A DNA stretch of 46,034 nucleotides from an uncultured Prevotella sp. (GTDB lineage: Bacteria; Bacteroidota; Bacteroidia; Bacteroidales; Bacteroidaceae): NCBI GenBank assembly GCA_900318625.1, contig ONLG01000009.1:1-46034 (forward strand), in the 5' to 3' direction. Positions 20,167 through 33,824 of the stretch are shown in pieces. The notes beneath the pieces are model-generated. The model was not told the origin of the DNA, ran no database searches, and was given only the letters and a program-made list of their open reading frames with translations. A program made the position numbers and the translations under genes. Positions within the stretch are counted from its first letter, which is position 1; every line of letters starts with the position of its first letter.

Positions 20167-20943
20167 TTAAAGCCCAGCCTCTTCCGTCAGCACACGCTCC
20201 AGTTCCTCTGCCGAAAGGCGCAACTGGAAGTTGCCGTCGATAGCCACACTTATTCGTCCGGTCTCCTCCGACACCACAATAGCCATGGCATCGCTCTCCT
20301 GTGAGATGCCCATCGCCGCGCGGTGGCGCAGTCCCAGGTGCTTGGGTATGTCCTGATTGTGGCTCACGGGCAGTATGCAGCCTGCGGCCTTGATGCGCTT
20401 CTTCGACAGAATCATTGCCCCGTCGTGCAGCGGCGAGTTCTTGAAGAAGATGTTTTCAATGAGTCGCTGGTTGATGCGCGCGTCGATTATGTCACCCGTA
20501 TCGACAATATCGTCGAGGGGAATACTGCGTTCTATCACTATCAGCGCGCCCACACGGCTGCGGCTCATGCTCATGCACGACATCACGATGGGCATGATGC
20601 TCTCCTTGTCGGCAGTGCGCTCGCGACCACGCGGCATGAAAAACTTCATCACCTTGCGCACTTTCTGATGGGCACCGAGGTTGTAGAAGAACTTTCTTAT
20701 CTCCTCCTGGAAGAGCACTATCAAGCCTATCATACCCACGCTGACGAGCTTGTCCATGATGCTGCCGAGCAAACGCATCTCGAGCATACGGCTTACGAAG
20801 AGCCACACCAGCACAAATACCATGATGCCGACGAACACATTGAGCGAACGCGACTCCTTCATCAGTCGATAGGCGTAGTACAACATCAGTGCCACGAGCA
20901 CGATGTCGATTATGTCTTTCACACCAAATTCAAACAGACCCAC
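20167..20943 (-). CDS. cdaA: Diadenylate cyclase CdaA (c-di-AMP synthase)
   Basis: A 258-aa protein, standard length. Three membrane helices lie in residues 10-85 (IIDIVLVALMLYYAYRLM, VFVGIMVFVLVWLFVSRML, VGMIGLIVLFQ), followed by the DAC domain with the catalytic LHDGAMIL (about 175) and LRHRAAMG (about 207) motifs. It makes the second messenger c-di-AMP from two ATP. It sits 55 nt downstream of folP on the same strand, a pairing that recurs in Bacteroidetes. The usual glmM and cdaR neighbours of Firmicutes are absent. Confidence 0.93.
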   Translation of the reverse strand: MGLFEFGVKDIIDIVLVALMLYYAYRLMKESRSLNVFVGIMVFVLVWLFVSRMLEMRLLGSIMDKLVSVGMIGLIVLFQEEIRKFFYNLGAHQKVRKVMKFFMPRGRERTADKESIMPIVMSCMSMSRSRVGALIVIERSIPLDDIVDTGDIIDARINQRLIENIFFKNSPLHDGAMILSKKRIKAAGCILPVSHNQDIPKHLGLRHRAAMGISQESDAMAIVVSEETGRISVAIDGNFQLRLSAEELERVLTEEAGL

Positions 20944-24435: not shown

Positions 24436-25794
24436 TCAGAACAGTTGCAGCTGATGGCCGAAGATGAGCAGAATGGCTATCGGGCAGACCACTCTCACGG
24501 CGAAGAGCCACAGCCGATAGATGCGCAAAGAGACGGTTCCGCTGTTGGTCAGCTCGTCGAACACCACGGCCTTTGGCACCACCCAGCCCACAAACAGGCA
24601 GGTGAAGAACGACCCTATGGGCAGCAGATACTGCGAGGTGAGGGTATCGCCAAAGTCCATAGCCGACAATCCGAACAGCCGCAGACCCGGAACGGCTCCC
24701 ACAGAGAGGGCACACACCACGGCGAACACACCGCAGATGGCCGACACGATGGTGGCTGCCGCGCGGCGCGAGAGGTGTAGCTCCTCATGGAAGAACACCG
24801 TTGCTATCTCGTGTATCGAGATGGTAGAGGTCAGCGCGGCCATCGAAAGCAGGGCATAGAACATCAATGCCACCACATTGCCGAGCATGGGGATGCCCGA
24901 GAAAGCCTGTTGGAACACGTTGGGAAGGGTGATGAACACGAGCGAAGGGCCGCTGTCGGGGTTCACTCCCACTGCTGCGGCTGCCGGGAAAATCATCAGT
25001 CCGGCGAGGATAGCTATGACGCAGTCAATCAGTGCCACCTGTGTGGCCGACTTCATAAGGTCTGTTTTCCGGTCGAAATACGAGGCGTATGTACACAGGC
25101 AGGCTGTGCCGAGGCTGAGCGAGAAGAACGCCTGTCCGAGCGCTTCGAGTATAGTGGACGACGTTATGACTGAGAAGTCGGGCTTGAAGAGGAACTCAAT
25201 GCCCTTGCCCGCACCCGGAAGCAGGCACGATGCCACGACAATGCCCACGAGCAACAGCAGCAACGTGGGCATGAGAAGGTTGGAGGCACGCTCCACTCCG
25301 CCCTTCACGCCGCGAGTGACAACCACGTGTGTGACGGCGATAAAGGCCAGTGCCCACAGCGCGGGCTTGACGGGATGGGTGGAGAAGGTCTTGAAATAGT
25401 CGGCCACATAGTCCGGGTCGCCAAGCACACTGCCCGAAAACGAGGCAAAGAGGTATTGCAGACACCAGCCCGCAACGACCGCATAGAACCCCAGGATAAT
25501 CATTGCCGTAATCACTCCGAGCACTCCCACCGCGCCCCAGCCTTTGCTGCGGCTCAGCGACGCGTATGACCTGAAGGCATTGCTGGCACCGTGACGGCCA
25601 ACAACAAACTCCGCAACCATGCCCGGTATGCCCAATATGAGCACGCAGCCGATGTAGAGCAGTATGAAGGCGGCACCGCCGTTGTGACCCGTCATATACG
25701 GAAAGCGCCACACGTTGCCCAGTCCTACGGCACTGCCGGCTGTGGCAAGTATCACTCCCAACTTCGAGAAGTTGGCTCTGTTGCTTGTTTTCAT
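24436..25794 (-). CDS. Sodium-dependent transporter, NSS/SNF family (second copy)
   Basis: A 452-aa inner-membrane protein with about eleven to twelve helices. The family opening LGVILATAGSAVGLGNVWRFPYMTGHNGGAAFI (here described by LGNVWRFPY, about residues 25-33) forms the sodium and substrate site in LeuT-type proteins; SLSLGTACLCTYASYF and LTSTISIHE are the matching later unwound helices. Members import amino acids or related compounds with sodium. The substrate cannot be named. It is a tandem paralog of the gene at 25807 with a 12-nt gap. Confidence 0.9.
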   Translation of the reverse strand: MKTSNRANFSKLGVILATAGSAVGLGNVWRFPYMTGHNGGAAFILLYIGCVLILGIPGMVAEFVVGRHGASNAFRSYASLSRSKGWGAVGVLGVITAMIILGFYAVVAGWCLQYLFASFSGSVLGDPDYVADYFKTFSTHPVKPALWALAFIAVTHVVVTRGVKGGVERASNLLMPTLLLLLVGIVVASCLLPGAGKGIEFLFKPDFSVITSSTILEALGQAFFSLSLGTACLCTYASYFDRKTDLMKSATQVALIDCVIAILAGLMIFPAAAAVGVNPDSGPSLVFITLPNVFQQAFSGIPMLGNVVALMFYALLSMAALTSTISIHEIATVFFHEELHLSRRAAATIVSAICGVFAVVCALSVGAVPGLRLFGLSAMDFGDTLTSQYLLPIGSFFTCLFVGWVVPKAVVFDELTNSGTVSLRIYRLWLFAVRVVCPIAILLIFGHQLQLF

Positions 25795-25806
25795 TTCACC
25801 TTATTA

Positions 25807-27168
25807 TTATATTACGCCCAGCTGGTGCAGGAACACCGCCAAGATAGCTGTCGGGCAGACAAACCGAATGAGGAAATAGAACACTCCGAAGAGGCTTCCG
25901 CGCTGGGTGCCCCAGTTGGTGTATTCGTCCTTGACGAGCTTCTTTGGCACATACCAGCCCAGGAACAGGCAGGTGAGGAAGCCTCCGATGGGCAGGAATA
26001 TCTGGCCGGTGACGAAGTCGAAGAGGTCGAACAGCGACTTGTCGCCTATCGACAGCACGTCGAGCTTGCCCAACGAGAGCGAGCAGAACGCGCCTATCAC
26101 ACCACAGCTGAGCGTCACTATCCATGCCGCACGGTTGCGAGTGATGTGCATTTCTTCCTGAAAGAAGGCGGTGCTGACCTCGTGGAGCGAGATGAGCGAC
26201 GTGAGAGCAGCAAGCCCAAGCAGCATGAAGAACATCACGGCAACCATGTATCCCACCACGGGAACACTGCTGAAAGCCTGCTCGAACACGTTGGGCAGGG
26301 TGATGAATATCAGCGACGGGCCGCTGTCAGGGCGCACACCCACCGAGGCGGCAGCCGGGAAAATCATCATTCCGGCAAGTATGGCCACCAGAAAGTCTAT
26401 CACGCTGATCTGGATAGCCGACGATGCCAGATTGGTCTGGCGGCTGAAGTAGCTTGCGTAGGTGCAGATGCAACCCATGGCAATGCTCAGCGAGTAGAAC
26501 GACTGGCCGAGAGCGGCAAGGAAAACATCGCCCGTGAGCTTGGAGAAATCGGGCCGGAACAGGAACAGCAGGCCGTCGGTGGCTCCCGGAAGCATACACG
26601 CTGCCACCACGATAATCAGCAACAGCACGAACAGCAGGGGCATCAGAATCTTTGAAGCACGCTCGATGCCGTTGCGCACGCCGTGGATTATCACGTAGTG
26701 GGCTACTCCCAGTATCACTGCAAGCCACAGAACGGGTCGCCACGGGTTGGCTGAGAACTCCTTGAAGTAGTCTGCAAAGTATTCGGGTCCGCCCTTCATG
26801 GCTCCTGTTGCCGATGCGTAGAGATACTCAAGACACCATCCCGACACCACACCATAGTAGCCGGTGATGAGAAATCCGGTAAGCACACCGAGGTAGCCCA
26901 CCCATTTCCATGCCGTTCCGTTGGACAGCTTGGTGTAGGCTCGGGCCGTGTTCGAGGCGGCATGGCGGCCAATGATGAACTCACAAATCATGCACGGCAG
27001 TCCCAAAAGCAGCACACTGACGATGTATATGCAGATAAATGCGGCTCCACCGTTGTCTCCGGTCATGTAGGAAAAGCGCCAGACGTTACCCAGTCCGACT
27101 GCTCCGCCAGCGGTGGCAAGTATCATTCCCAGCTTGCTTCCGAAGCTGGCTCTCTCTGTTTGCGGCAT
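25807..27168 (-). CDS. Sodium-dependent transporter, NSS/SNF family (first copy)
   Basis: A 453-aa inner-membrane symporter with the LGNVWRFSYMTGDNGG sodium-site segment near residue 25 and SLSIAMGCICTYASYF around 240. It differs from its neighbour at LGNVWRF-S-Y versus -P-Y and through the C-terminal half, so the pair is an old duplication with possibly different substrates. Start taken at ATG 27168 (MPQTERASFG); the frame extends two codons to a TTG. A promoter element lies 24 nt upstream on the same strand. Confidence 0.9.
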   Translation of the reverse strand: MPQTERASFGSKLGMILATAGGAVGLGNVWRFSYMTGDNGGAAFICIYIVSVLLLGLPCMICEFIIGRHAASNTARAYTKLSNGTAWKWVGYLGVLTGFLITGYYGVVSGWCLEYLYASATGAMKGGPEYFADYFKEFSANPWRPVLWLAVILGVAHYVIIHGVRNGIERASKILMPLLFVLLLIIVVAACMLPGATDGLLFLFRPDFSKLTGDVFLAALGQSFYSLSIAMGCICTYASYFSRQTNLASSAIQISVIDFLVAILAGMMIFPAAASVGVRPDSGPSLIFITLPNVFEQAFSSVPVVGYMVAVMFFMLLGLAALTSLISLHEVSTAFFQEEMHITRNRAAWIVTLSCGVIGAFCSLSLGKLDVLSIGDKSLFDLFDFVTGQIFLPIGGFLTCLFLGWYVPKKLVKDEYTNWGTQRGSLFGVFYFLIRFVCPTAILAVFLHQLGVI

Positions 27169-27187
27169 AAACAAATTGCATTTAGTC

Positions 27188-31313: not shown

Positions 31314-31343
31314 AGCCTTTCAGAATTGTAAGATGTAGTACTG

Positions 31344-31375
31344 CAAAGGTAGTGTAATCAAAGGGAAACTCCAAA
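31344..31375 (-). promoter_or_regulatory. Promoter of the acyl-CoA ligase-prfB operon
   Basis: On the minus strand TTTG (31375-31372), 20 nt, TACCTTTG (31351-31344), 30 nt before the ATG. Exact consensus match. Confidence 0.75.
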
Positions 31376-31626
31376 TTTATTTTCGTTTTTAGGACAAACG
31401 GCAGACGACAGGCAATTCTTTCTTTTGTTCACACCCCGACATTGGAGGACTGGCAGCAGTGTTAGTTCTTGGACAAGCCGAGCGGCAGCCTACTTCTACC
31501 ACGCATAATATAAATTAAAGGTAGGAAGTATTCGGCACACTCACCGCCGTAGGCCGACAGCACGTTCTTCTCATATTTCTGCAAATCCTACTTCTGCGAT
31601 TTCTCGAAACAATTCACTACACCAAC
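31376..31626. other. Intergenic stretch without a recognised gene
   Basis: About 250 bp between the acyl-CoA ligase promoter and the end of the 350-aa gene. No convincing open frame or RNA gene is seen. A loose inverted repeat (TACTTCTACC near 31492, GGTAGGAAGTA near 31520) could serve as a terminator for the operon to the right. Confidence 0.4.
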
Positions 31627-32679
31627 TTAATCTCCACTGTCAATCTTCTTCTGGTTGTCGCCTTTATAACGATGGTCAGAGAGCGTAATCTGCGATGAAA
31701 GTTTTCGCTTAACTATAATTGAAGCCTCCCGCTGCTTTGGCCTGCAATAAGAGGAATACAACTCTTCATTTTCAGCACGGAAGGAACGGCTGTCAAATTG
31801 CATCACGGTCCTGGCAGAAGTGTAACTGACGGATATTTGCTTGGAATTTACTTTCTCTAAGCCATACCTCTCCATACGCTCACGTAATCTCATTCTTAAT
31901 TCGGTTATTTGTTCCTCTATCGCAATCTTTTCGTTAAACAGTCTTACCAATTCACGCTCGTATTCATCAAACCAACCTTCTGGGACTGCTTCCTTGGGTG
32001 TGGCTGTTGGCTGTGCCTCTGTTTCAAATACAGTCGCAGCCAGTTTGAAATGTGCTCCCTCATATTCCAGTCCCAGTGAACAGGTGATGAACATAGTGCC
32101 TTTCTGCCCTACAGCCCGTTGACCTAATCGGAGGCCGGCCTGATAGCACGGGTCGGTTATAGGGAAATCATATTGGTGTCCGTGATAAATGAAACTGATG
32201 CGATAGCGAACCTGTCCGGAATATCCTTCGTCAGCATAGACTTCAGCATGTTCGACTCTGATAAGCAGAATGGAATGACTGCCTTGGCGGTAGTCAATTG
32301 GAAGAATGGCTTTTCCATAGTTGTAGAACACATGGCGATGGCTATCGTCCATAAAGCGCTGGAGTAGTTGCGAGGTTATCGCATAATGCTTGCCCATGGA
32401 AGTCATCTTCTGAAAAAACACATTCTCCTGCTGCGCATACGAAGGACAAGGCACTACTCCTTCAAGTCTGACCACGTCGAGCACATTGATGTGCGAAGCC
32501 TGATGGGTGGGTATCTCGCCGGTCGTTGTTTCTTTACTGACGGGGCGAATCCACTTGGCTGCCCCACTCTGGCCTCTTACCACTTTACTTTTCTCACCAT
32601 CCCACAGCACTTCGATACCTGCGACACACCTGCCACCATGTTTATACGAATTTGCCAAACAGATGAAATACTTGTCCAT
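31627..32679 (-). CDS. Uncharacterised protein of a DUF488 operon, with coiled coil and phage-recombination-like C-terminus
   Basis: A 350-aa protein, third gene of the operon. The N-terminal half (MDKYFICLANSYKHGGRCV, and WIRPVSKETTTGEIP, VEGVVPCPSYAQ-type blocks) is beta-rich with FICLANS and RPV features that I associate with a dual OB-fold-like domain; this is from memory. Residues about 235-270 form a coiled coil (EYERELVRLFNEKIAIEEQ, ITELRMRLRERMERYGLE). The following SKQISVSYTSARTVMQFDS, ENEELYSSYCR and EASIIVK resemble the tail found after coiled coils in phage recombination and YqaJ-type nuclease-associated proteins. No nuclease active site is evident. It starts 12 nt after the second DUF488 gene. 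A nucleic-acid-related role is inferred only. Confidence 0.6.
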   Translation of the reverse strand: MDKYFICLANSYKHGGRCVAGIEVLWDGEKSKVVRGQSGAAKWIRPVSKETTTGEIPTHQASHINVLDVVRLEGVVPCPSYAQQENVFFQKMTSMGKHYAITSQLLQRFMDDSHRHVFYNYGKAILPIDYRQGSHSILLIRVEHAEVYADEGYSGQVRYRISFIYHGHQYDFPITDPCYQAGLRLGQRAVGQKGTMFITCSLGLEYEGAHFKLAATVFETEAQPTATPKEAVPEGWFDEYERELVRLFNEKIAIEEQITELRMRLRERMERYGLEKVNSKQISVSYTSARTVMQFDSRSFRAENEELYSSYCRPKQREASIIVKRKLSSQITLSDHRYKGDNQKKIDSGD

Positions 32680-32691
32680 GGTAATGACTTA

Positions 32692-33132
32692 TTACAAGTG
32701 TACAATCGTTACTTCCTCTGCGGAATGATTCTTCATATATTCTGCCAACAGACGTCGGTGACAGTTCTCTGCAGTAGCCTCACTGCAAAGGAAACATGCT
32801 CTGTCAAACTGCCTTATACCATACTTGCGGAGTATGTCCCGGTCTTTGAGCATCGCGGTGTAGATCTCTTCATATTCCTGCCATGTCACTTCCTGTTTAT
32901 GCCATTTGTCAAGCAGTTCTTTAGTGGGTGCAAAGTCAGTAATGTGATCGTAGGGGATATGGCATATTTCCTTCACAAAGAACTCCAAGTCCTTACCCTT
33001 TGCAAACCCCGAGAGCTGGCTACCGTTGCTGATGCGTACATCAACAAGTTGCTTTACCTGATTGTCACGGAGCAGGTTGAAGAATTGCTCGGCACTTTTC
33101 TTAGTAAATCCTACGGTATAGAGTGTAATCAT
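32692..33132 (-). CDS. DUF488-family protein, short form
   Basis: A 146-aa protein. The family features are YTVGFTKKSAEQFFNLL at the N-terminus, LVDVRISNGSQLSGFAKG (about residues 29-46, the DVR motif), WQEYEEIY and the C-terminal FLCSEATAENCHRRLLAEYM with Cys116, Glu118, Cys124, His125 and Arg126. The clustered Cys/His/Arg look like an active site, but no activity is established for the family. It begins 3 nt after the longer DUF488 gene and differs strongly from it, so these are distinct paralogs, not a recent duplication. Confidence 0.85.
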   Translation of the reverse strand: MITLYTVGFTKKSAEQFFNLLRDNQVKQLVDVRISNGSQLSGFAKGKDLEFFVKEICHIPYDHITDFAPTKELLDKWHKQEVTWQEYEEIYTAMLKDRDILRKYGIRQFDRACFLCSEATAENCHRRLLAEYMKNHSAEEVTIVHL

Positions 33133-33135
33133 TGC

Positions 33136-33768
33136 TTAATAAGTTTCTTCTAACTCGTATTGCGGTTTGTAACCAATCTCCTTGTTCTTTAACCGATAGG
33201 CATCACGTCGCTGGTCTTCCGCCGTATAACTTCCAAAGAGCTGGTCAATATCTGCAAGCTTTGGTTTCCTGGAATGGAGATATTCGTCTATCATCTCCTT
33301 TTCCAGTGATTCGTGCGAAGCCAGCTCCCCATCTTTCAAGATGTGCTGCACGTCAAGTCCATTGTCATAGAAATAGCGCGATACCAGCGAAAACCTGTGA
33401 CACTCCAGAGGGTTGGCCTCAGAACACATCAAAGAAATACAAAAGCCCTTCTGCAGTCCATTCATCAATCGCTCAACACCGCGCTTGAATTTGATTGTTC
33501 TGGCTGCCTGCTCAAAATCAACCTGCCCTTCGGTATTCAGGCTGTCTGTCCGACGCGCACCGAACTCTTCTCCGAAATGCAGATATTGAATATCATTCTT
33601 TTTTAGAAACCATTTCAGTGGATCCATATTAAACTGGGGTGTGTATTTGCTGGCAGGCAAACTCCTCACATCCACGATGCAGTTGACATCGTGTCTTTTC
33701 AGCAATTCAAGAAATTCTTCTTGTGACTGACTGGAATGTCCTACACTGTAGAGTCTGAATTTGCCCAT
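33136..33768 (-). CDS. DUF488-family protein, long form
   Basis: A 210-aa protein, first gene of the operon. Motifs: YSVGHSSQSQEEFLELL (residues 7-23), CIVDVRSLPASKYTPQFN (30-47), YLHFGEEFGARR (62-73), and FCISLMCSEANPLECHRFSLVSRYF with Cys115, Glu117, Cys123, His124 and Arg125. About 60 extra C-terminal residues (EYLHSRKPKLADIDQLFGS...) form charged helices missing in the short paralog. Family function is unknown. The S-V-G-H-S start and P-x-S-x-x-P-x-F are the usual DUF488 pattern. The gene has an exact consensus promoter. Confidence 0.88.
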   Translation of the reverse strand: MGKFRLYSVGHSSQSQEEFLELLKRHDVNCIVDVRSLPASKYTPQFNMDPLKWFLKKNDIQYLHFGEEFGARRTDSLNTEGQVDFEQAARTIKFKRGVERLMNGLQKGFCISLMCSEANPLECHRFSLVSRYFYDNGLDVQHILKDGELASHESLEKEMIDEYLHSRKPKLADIDQLFGSYTAEDQRRDAYRLKNKEIGYKPQYELEETY

Positions 33769-33793
33769 AGGAAATATTATATTCTTCCGTTTG

Positions 33794-33824
33794 CAAAGTT
33801 AGGGAAAATATGTCGAAGGGCAAA
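33794..33824 (-). promoter_or_regulatory. Promoter of the DUF488 operon
   Basis: On the minus strand TTTG (33824-33821), 19 nt, TAACTTTG (33801-33794), 25 nt before the ATG at 33768. Exact consensus match; no internal promoter is seen in the three-gene run. Confidence 0.75.

Follow-up and report, generated by a model that had tools for sequence, protein, structure and literature searches.

A Prevotella operon of two DUF488 proteins and a DuOB protein belongs to the candidate system PDC-M45 and has relatives linked to helicase and repair genes

The stretch of DNA analyzed in the present study, hereafter the window, comprises 46,034 nucleotides of an uncultured Prevotella sp. (assembly GCA_900318625.1, contig ONLG01000009.1, positions 1 to 46,034). 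It carries a three-gene operon that encodes two DUF488 proteins, B and C, and a partner with a tandem OB domain, A. By profile comparison, we firmly assign this operon to PDC-M45, a candidate system catalogued by PADLOC: in PADLOC-DB 2.0.0, A matched PDC-M45A (1.1e-32), B matched PDC-M45B (2.4e-55), and C matched PDC-M45C (6e-56), and nothing in NCBIfam rose above a cut-off for these proteins. The first-pass annotation, made from the letters alone, had presented the trio as its best candidate for an undescribed system. Since all three proteins match PDC-M45 families, and since Pfam already holds DuOB and DUF488-N3a, that description was abandoned. A role in defense is the label of an untested candidate. 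No main text naming PDC-M45 appeared in the literature searched, and a search for DuOB and the Pfam accessions returned only papers unrelated by title; in the part of PMC12409345 available to us, two other candidate systems were assayed and showed no defense activity. Four observations are new. In relatives of the trio, DuOB is fused to a RecQ or Pif1 helicase or encoded beside Pif1; plasmid and viral-contig versions carry a SLOG-DUF4326 protein in place of B; DUF488 and rhodanese profiles match weakly; and lone C-type DUF488 genes adjoin uvrA or uvrB in formaldehyde clusters on plasmids.

The features of the operon are as follows.
33136-33768, minus strand: gene B, the first gene of the operon, encoding a DUF488 protein of 210 amino acids (PDC-M45B)
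32692-33132, minus strand: gene C, encoding a DUF488 protein of 146 amino acids (PDC-M45C)
31627-32679, minus strand: gene A, encoding a protein of 350 amino acids with a DuOB tandem OB domain (4-217), a helix (238-272), and a small C-terminal tail domain (PDC-M45A)
33794-33824, minus strand: exact promoter-type motif TTTG-N19-TAACTTTG ahead of gene B
31314-31626, no strand: non-coding stretch past gene A, containing the promoter-type motif of the next gene
31344-31375, minus strand: second copy of TTTG-N19-TAACTTTG, ahead of the next gene

The gaps are 3 nucleotides between B and C and 12 between C and A. The TTTG-N19-TAACTTTG pattern, which we take to be a promoter type of Bacteroidota, matched seven times in the window against 0.11 expected, and its second copy before the following gene supports the trio being a separate transcription unit. 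A tight operon, an exact consensus promoter, and a non-coding stretch of its own at the end had all been described from the letters, and each was found again.

Both B (73.5 bits) and C (75.1 bits) exceed the Pfam cut-off for DUF488 (PF04343, 22.2 bits), and the 2.38 Mb assembly (85% complete) contains no PF04343 match besides them. C also lies above the cut-off for DUF488-N3a (PF22751; 39.4 vs 27 bits), described by Pfam as 'Active DUF488-N3 subclade', and B lies below it (16.8 vs 27 bits). The two paralogs had been said to retain a cluster resembling an active site, and the alignments bear this out. C115, E117, C123, H124, and R125 of B are invariant in 45/45 aligned rows, as are D33 and R35; in C, the same is true of C116, E118, C124, H125, R126, D31, and R33 in 39/39 rows. 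D-x-R, C-x-E, and C-H-R are present in every row of both sets. The cysteines are missing from many other DUF488 proteins of the host phylum, in which DUF488 occurs in 51 of 198 genomes; the domain is common, yet Pfam still names it a domain of unknown function. The structure model of C has a pLDDT of 91.7 and a pTM of 0.86. In the PDB, no clear sequence relative of B was detected, and the profiles of B and C also gave no convincing match.

Residues 4-217 of A correspond to Pfam DuOB (PF22557; 1.7e-38, 133.2 bits vs a cut-off of 27), which Pfam defines as 'Dual OB-containing domain', and cover positions 2-210 of the 210 in the model. In the structure model (pLDDT 87.1, pTM 0.66), one long, coiled-coil-like helix (238-272) precedes a small C-terminal fold. 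Among the best PDB matches to the model of A, the 16 that Foldseek gave at E 3.9e-5 to 8.2e-4 are mostly chains of HIN, RPA, LEF-3, and SSB. The OB-like N-terminus and the coiled coil that had been proposed for the 350-residue protein were thereby both recovered. However, A has no clear sequence relation to HIN, RPA, or SSB proteins and its TM-scores are low, and the latter makes a different arrangement of its two OB folds probable. Nor did the PDB contain any clear sequence relative of A. The tail matches phrog_6244 (1.3e-12) and the RecE-like phrog_434 (0.0012), a weak phage-like resemblance; with Sipho_Gp157 (PF05565), it reached 22.7 bits vs a cut-off of 28.6, which is resemblance only. 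The first-pass annotation had compared this tail with phage recombination and YqaJ-associated proteins. The former comparison stands in weak form, and YqaJ was dropped with no match in the Pfam, NCBIfam, or phage-family (phrog) scans. In six loci (L012, L013, L015, L016, L021, and L022; L and G numbers denote our loci and genomes), protein A has an insert, KWT...N.GAI.SR, between DuOB and the tail, and we take this insert of Bacteroidales A proteins to be Myb-like or helix-turn-helix-like.

A trio that stays together in unrelated bacteria and is patchily distributed had been named as support for a system, and this is the pattern found. A single scan of genome contigs with C yielded 67 loci, with taxa taken from record titles. 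All three genes are present in 50 of the 67, fused forms counted, and B and C occur together in 57 when recognized by separate profiles. Full trios carry the titles of Bacteroidales, Fibrobacterota, Desulfobacteraceae, other deltaproteobacteria, Thermomonospora, Acidobacteria, Planctomycetota, Latescibacterota, Verrucomicrobiales, and the archaeon Methanoregula. Several loci without the full trio stop at a contig edge; L053 and L055 have C and A with B absent. The window operon resembles the catalogued PDC-M45 in that three adjacent genes all match its families. Its order is B-C-A, as in the Bacteroidales-titled full trios (three of which have an additional A in front), whereas A-B-C is commoner under other titles; both orders occur within the host phylum and order. 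The window A also has a tail, which is absent from the A proteins of many relatives. Three Prevotella-type loci (L017, L021, and L022) have a second DuOB gene before B, giving A-B-C-A, and a conserved gene of approximately 443 amino acids upstream.

Two genome samples, from the host phylum and the host order, were picked independently of C. Six of 296 phylum genomes and 6 of 198 order genomes contain DuOB, the own genome counted in each. A B-type DUF488 lies beside all 10 other DuOB genes of these samples and an open C beside nine; in the tenth (G209), a single stop interrupts the C frame. More distant DUF488 pairs of the genus and phylum (L168, L172, L173, L174, and L205-L208) are followed by a gene that appears DuOB-like by eye, and the DuOB cut-off was passed in all three of those scanned by Pfam (L168, L172, and L207). 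A genus locus, L171, has A and B, and no C was found in it.

The tight linkage is accompanied by signs of mobility. In the genus sample, C matched at 1e-10 in 9 of 150 genomes and was close in three, namely, the own genome, G034, and G115. In the 16 and 19 kb stretches of G034 and G115, the trio is the sole set of genes shared with the window. The operon has a GC content of 45.7% vs 55.2% for the window, and, among 878 windows of equal length, 1.3% were as low. Patchy presence, differing flanks, and low GC together indicate that the trio moves horizontally. C-like DUF488 genes were present in 126 of 72,556 plasmids, 81 of which are predicted to be conjugative, and many are the solitary form. 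Among viral contigs, C has DuOB, B, or DUF4326 as its neighbor in 12 of the best 13 of 38 loci, and one (L223) has a single long B-type frame only; the phage collection had no record matching C. In 15 relatives searched for an empty site, the DNA upstream of the AMP-binding ligase lacked both the trio and the window's hydrolase gene and therefore offered no clean empty site. On an 8.2 kb Salmonella plasmid (L249, 132-5820), a shortened DuOB gene is split off from the DUF488 and DUF4326 genes by an intervening segment that carries ISEcp1 and blaCMY-31, and relatives free of this segment reside on 4.2 kb plasmids.

These data bear on whether the trio is an ordinary housekeeping operon of its host. 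The trio is flanked by genes for an AMP-binding ligase and an alpha/beta hydrolase, and prfB and a SusCD pair are also neighbors in the window (all by Pfam), an ordinary setting that would suit such a role. However, close C proteins in merely 3 of 150 genus genomes, different flanks in both relatives with a close C, low GC, and relatives on plasmids and viral contigs argue against it; the reading, which would need conserved presence and synteny, is already contradicted. We regard a housekeeping role as very improbable.

In a search limited to RecQ and Pif1 types, a helicase accompanied the trio in 15 of the 67 loci. DuOB is fused to Pif1 in five (L019, L026, L029, L031, and L067) and to RecQ in three (L033, L039, and L049), a separate Pif1 frame lies beside A in L032, and a separate Pif1 gene is located upstream in L014 (a shorter frame), L015, L016, L018, L068, and L069. 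According to Pfam, L049 combines the RecQ core, RQC, HRDC, and DuOB in a single protein, and L016 has PIF1, HRDC, and helix-turn-helix domains. In the Methanoregula locus (L036), DuOB is followed by a stretch that matched the RecQ query, which we read as HRDC, and then by a tail as in A. Two loci of a distant genus lineage (L172 and L173) have a DUF488 pair, DuOB, and Pif1 downstream; in L172, a gene just above the TerB cut-off lies upstream. In Rhodovastum, a trio identified by position and annotation adjoins an SNF2-related gene. The window copy has no helicase fused to it or in the adjacent genes. A search of its genome for Pif1 gave two family matches, both on other contigs.

We placed these associations on a tree of 88 C proteins, built by a quick method from few columns with SH-aLRT support and without bootstrap. 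The label of helicase versus none changes seven times on this tree, with 11 loci of short flank left out. Its well-supported branches force at least two changes for Pif1 fusion, at least two for separate Pif1, and at least one for RecQ.

We tentatively favor, at somewhat less than even chances, a reading in which a nucleic-acid-binding DuOB, often coupled to a helicase, works with two cysteine enzymes that act on phosphates or adducts of DNA or nucleotides, in defense or repair. DuOB would bind single-stranded or otherwise exposed DNA through its two OB folds. A RecQ- or Pif1-type helicase, fused or adjacent in some relatives, would supply this DNA, and the window copy, with no helicase gene alongside, would have to borrow one. 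The two DUF488 proteins would be cysteine enzymes, probably of the rhodanese/Cys-phosphatase kind, whose target would be the bound DNA (a phosphate, an end, or an adduct) or a nucleotide derived from it. Foreign or damaged DNA would thereby be destroyed or repaired, and the module used against invading elements.

The proposed cysteine chemistry draws on a comparison with rhodaneses. A 95-row DUF488 profile of cluster-bearing proteins scored 29.7 (P 2.3e-4) against a profile of 17 rhodaneses; as null values, 200 column shuffles reached at most 19.1, and 34 unrelated families at most 19.4. The alignment of B with rhodanese is domain-wide and matches VDVR to IDVR and the MC..CHR region to the YC..R loop. 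With C alone, 22 columns aligned, and a mixed DUF488 alignment scored 21.8. VIA-align listed no rhodanese chain among 50 matches for C, which is not evidence against the relationship. It is likely, albeit unproven, that DUF488 belongs to the rhodanese-phosphatase superfamily.

The plasmid and viral-contig versions bring in a second family of this kind. Their order is often DuOB, C, and a DUF4326 protein, B being absent, and both DUF4326-type proteins scanned have mSLOG together with DUF4326. PMC9503650, in the part available, assigns DUF4326 to the rhodanese-phosphatase superfamily, predicts that it processes terminal phosphates on the ribose of ADP-ribose products, and describes fusions with SLOG, Macro, and NADAR; that part does not mention DUF488. 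The likeness between DUF4326 and DUF488 consists of the place of B beside DuOB and C being taken by DUF4326 and, by eye, of a C..P..CH motif before a helix. However, the loop of DUF488 is longer and a SLOG domain is lacking from it, and the profiles resemble each other over a short stretch only, at or close to noise level. DUF4326 scored 27.2 (P 0.0015) against the C profile, for which shuffles were not run and which therefore has no exact null. Against the 95-row DUF488 profile, it scored 20.4, within the shuffles (best 21.1), and against the rhodanese profile, it remained at noise level by the shuffle null.

The replacement of B by mSLOG-DUF4326, together with the predicted ADP-ribose chemistry and the SLOG, Macro, and NADAR fusions in the available part of PMC9503650, would suit a module for nucleotide signals. 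The DUF488 pair would then process a small nucleotide signal, such as ADP-ribose, and be switched by DuOB as a sensor of nucleic acid, with DNA as the trigger and not the substrate. However, a Pfam scan of 15 window proteins gave no SLOG, Macro, or NADAR match, and the helicase fusions and the linkage to uvr genes described below point to DNA itself. We consider signaling to be rather unlikely, although it is the closest competitor of the reading in which the trio acts on DNA.

Copies of C outside the trio are found in a repair setting. Among well over 100 matches, five records with the uvr/formaldehyde context were examined, each with a solitary C-type DUF488 gene beside uvrA or uvrB.
L253, 6004-6435: solitary C-type DUF488
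L256, 6004-6444: solitary C-type DUF488
L257, 7001-7432: solitary C-type DUF488
L258, 7001-7432: solitary C-type DUF488
L263, 6001-6432: solitary C-type DUF488

On an IncHI2A plasmid, the gene adjoins uvrA, with fghA and frmR also present, and an IncF plasmid from E. coli, in the same lineage, likewise has it next to uvrA, with fghA; in Acinetobacter, Comamonas, and Aeromonas, it lies beside uvrB and formaldehyde genes. On the tree of 88 rows, well-supported branches set the Acinetobacter case apart from the others, so that this context appears to have originated twice. A solitary relative in Shinella is near rarA; a formaldehyde-sensitive repressor is encoded approximately 6 kb off, and the stretch shown has none of the uvr genes. 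A literature search combining formaldehyde, frmR, uvrA, and plasmid found no paper.

These contexts invite the view that the trio is a DNA-damage repair cassette and not a phage defense system, the module or C reversing or removing adducts on DNA or its crosslinks to protein, for example those caused by formaldehyde. The solitary C genes beside uvrA or uvrB in formaldehyde clusters on plasmids of Enterobacterales, Aeromonas, Comamonas, and Acinetobacter are consistent with it, as are the two changes that well-supported branches force for this context. RecQ, Pif1, HRDC, and OB domains are, moreover, usual parts of repair. However, the trio is patchy and carried on mobile elements, which is usual for defense and not for core repair, the Shinella relative stands near rarA without a uvr gene, and the tree that counts the two changes has few columns and no bootstrap. 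A pure repair cassette thus appears unlikely to us. The trio may serve defense, repair, or signaling, and the other copies of C, judged by their gene neighborhoods, point to DNA-damage repair.

We also speculate, with considerable doubt, that DUF488 proteins of this kind are cysteine-dependent enzymes that process DNA adducts, crosslinks, or ends, and that mobile elements reuse them both with uvrA or uvrB in clusters for formaldehyde resistance and, against other elements, with a tandem-OB protein and a helicase. If so, a candidate for phage defense would represent repair chemistry redirected at foreign or damaged DNA, and this branch of DUF488 would receive an assigned reaction. The helicase fusions, the SLOG-DUF4326 swap, and the uvr/formaldehyde linkage offer concrete tests of the role of DUF488, and the same evidence bears on whether an entry in a defense catalogue stands for defense, repair, or both.

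Another catalogued candidate, PDC-M19, may be related to the trio. In L169 (4728-6544) and L170 (4547-6309), a DUF488 protein with a weak Panacea-like N-terminus is followed by a partner of 283 amino acids that has a CxAG...WIR start similar to that of the trio's partner. Both genes of L169 match PDC-M19A and PDC-M19B, which suggests that PDC-M19 and PDC-M45 are related. In contrast to PDC-M45, PDC-M19 has a single DUF488 with the Panacea-like region and not two DUF488 proteins, and its partner shows no more than a suggestive relation to DuOB (hhalign P 0.032, probability 1.6%). The N-terminal match to the SocA/Panacea antitoxin-like family (5e-4, 21.4 bits) falls short of the cut-off of 25.7 bits. 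This weak match and the relatives on small plasmids might suggest a toxin-antitoxin-like or abortive module, with harm done by one DUF488 and kept in check by DuOB or by the second DUF488. However, the full residue cluster is kept in both DUF488 paralogs, and A, B, and C matched no toxin family in the Pfam, NCBIfam, PADLOC-DB, and phage-family scans. We hold such a module to be improbable.

Individual trios stand close to defense genes. On the Allochromatium plasmid pAt1, the trio is located between cas1/csx16 and csm6 of a type III CRISPR locus; in Agrobacterium, it is less than 4 kb from a CBASS cyclase; and in Moraxella, the DUF4326 version is near viperin and an ssb gene. The wider neighborhood was assessed with 301 non-redundant open reading frames near 51 loci with a GC content below 56%. 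Among these, 144 were within the size limit and 109 were scanned; 35 were left out by hand with no recorded rule, mostly frames that were short or questionable, plus two that were DuOB-like. In the PADLOC tally, covering the first 25 of 179 families, PDC-S01 was present in up to 7 of 109 frames and mad2 in three, and PD-T4-6, a type II methyltransferase, mad6, NERD+UvrD, and others appeared once each. Pfam found AAA_14 and DUF4143 also in seven, which are taken to be the PDC-S01 members. No clear enrichment of defense genes emerged among these 109 frames near low-GC loci, and, since the comparison had no random-gene control, we claim neither enrichment nor its absence.

Elsewhere in the window, a diadenylate cyclase of the CdaA type, with DAC and CdaA_N domains, is encoded at 20170-20943, and a tandem pair of sodium:neurotransmitter symporter-family genes occupies 24439-27174.

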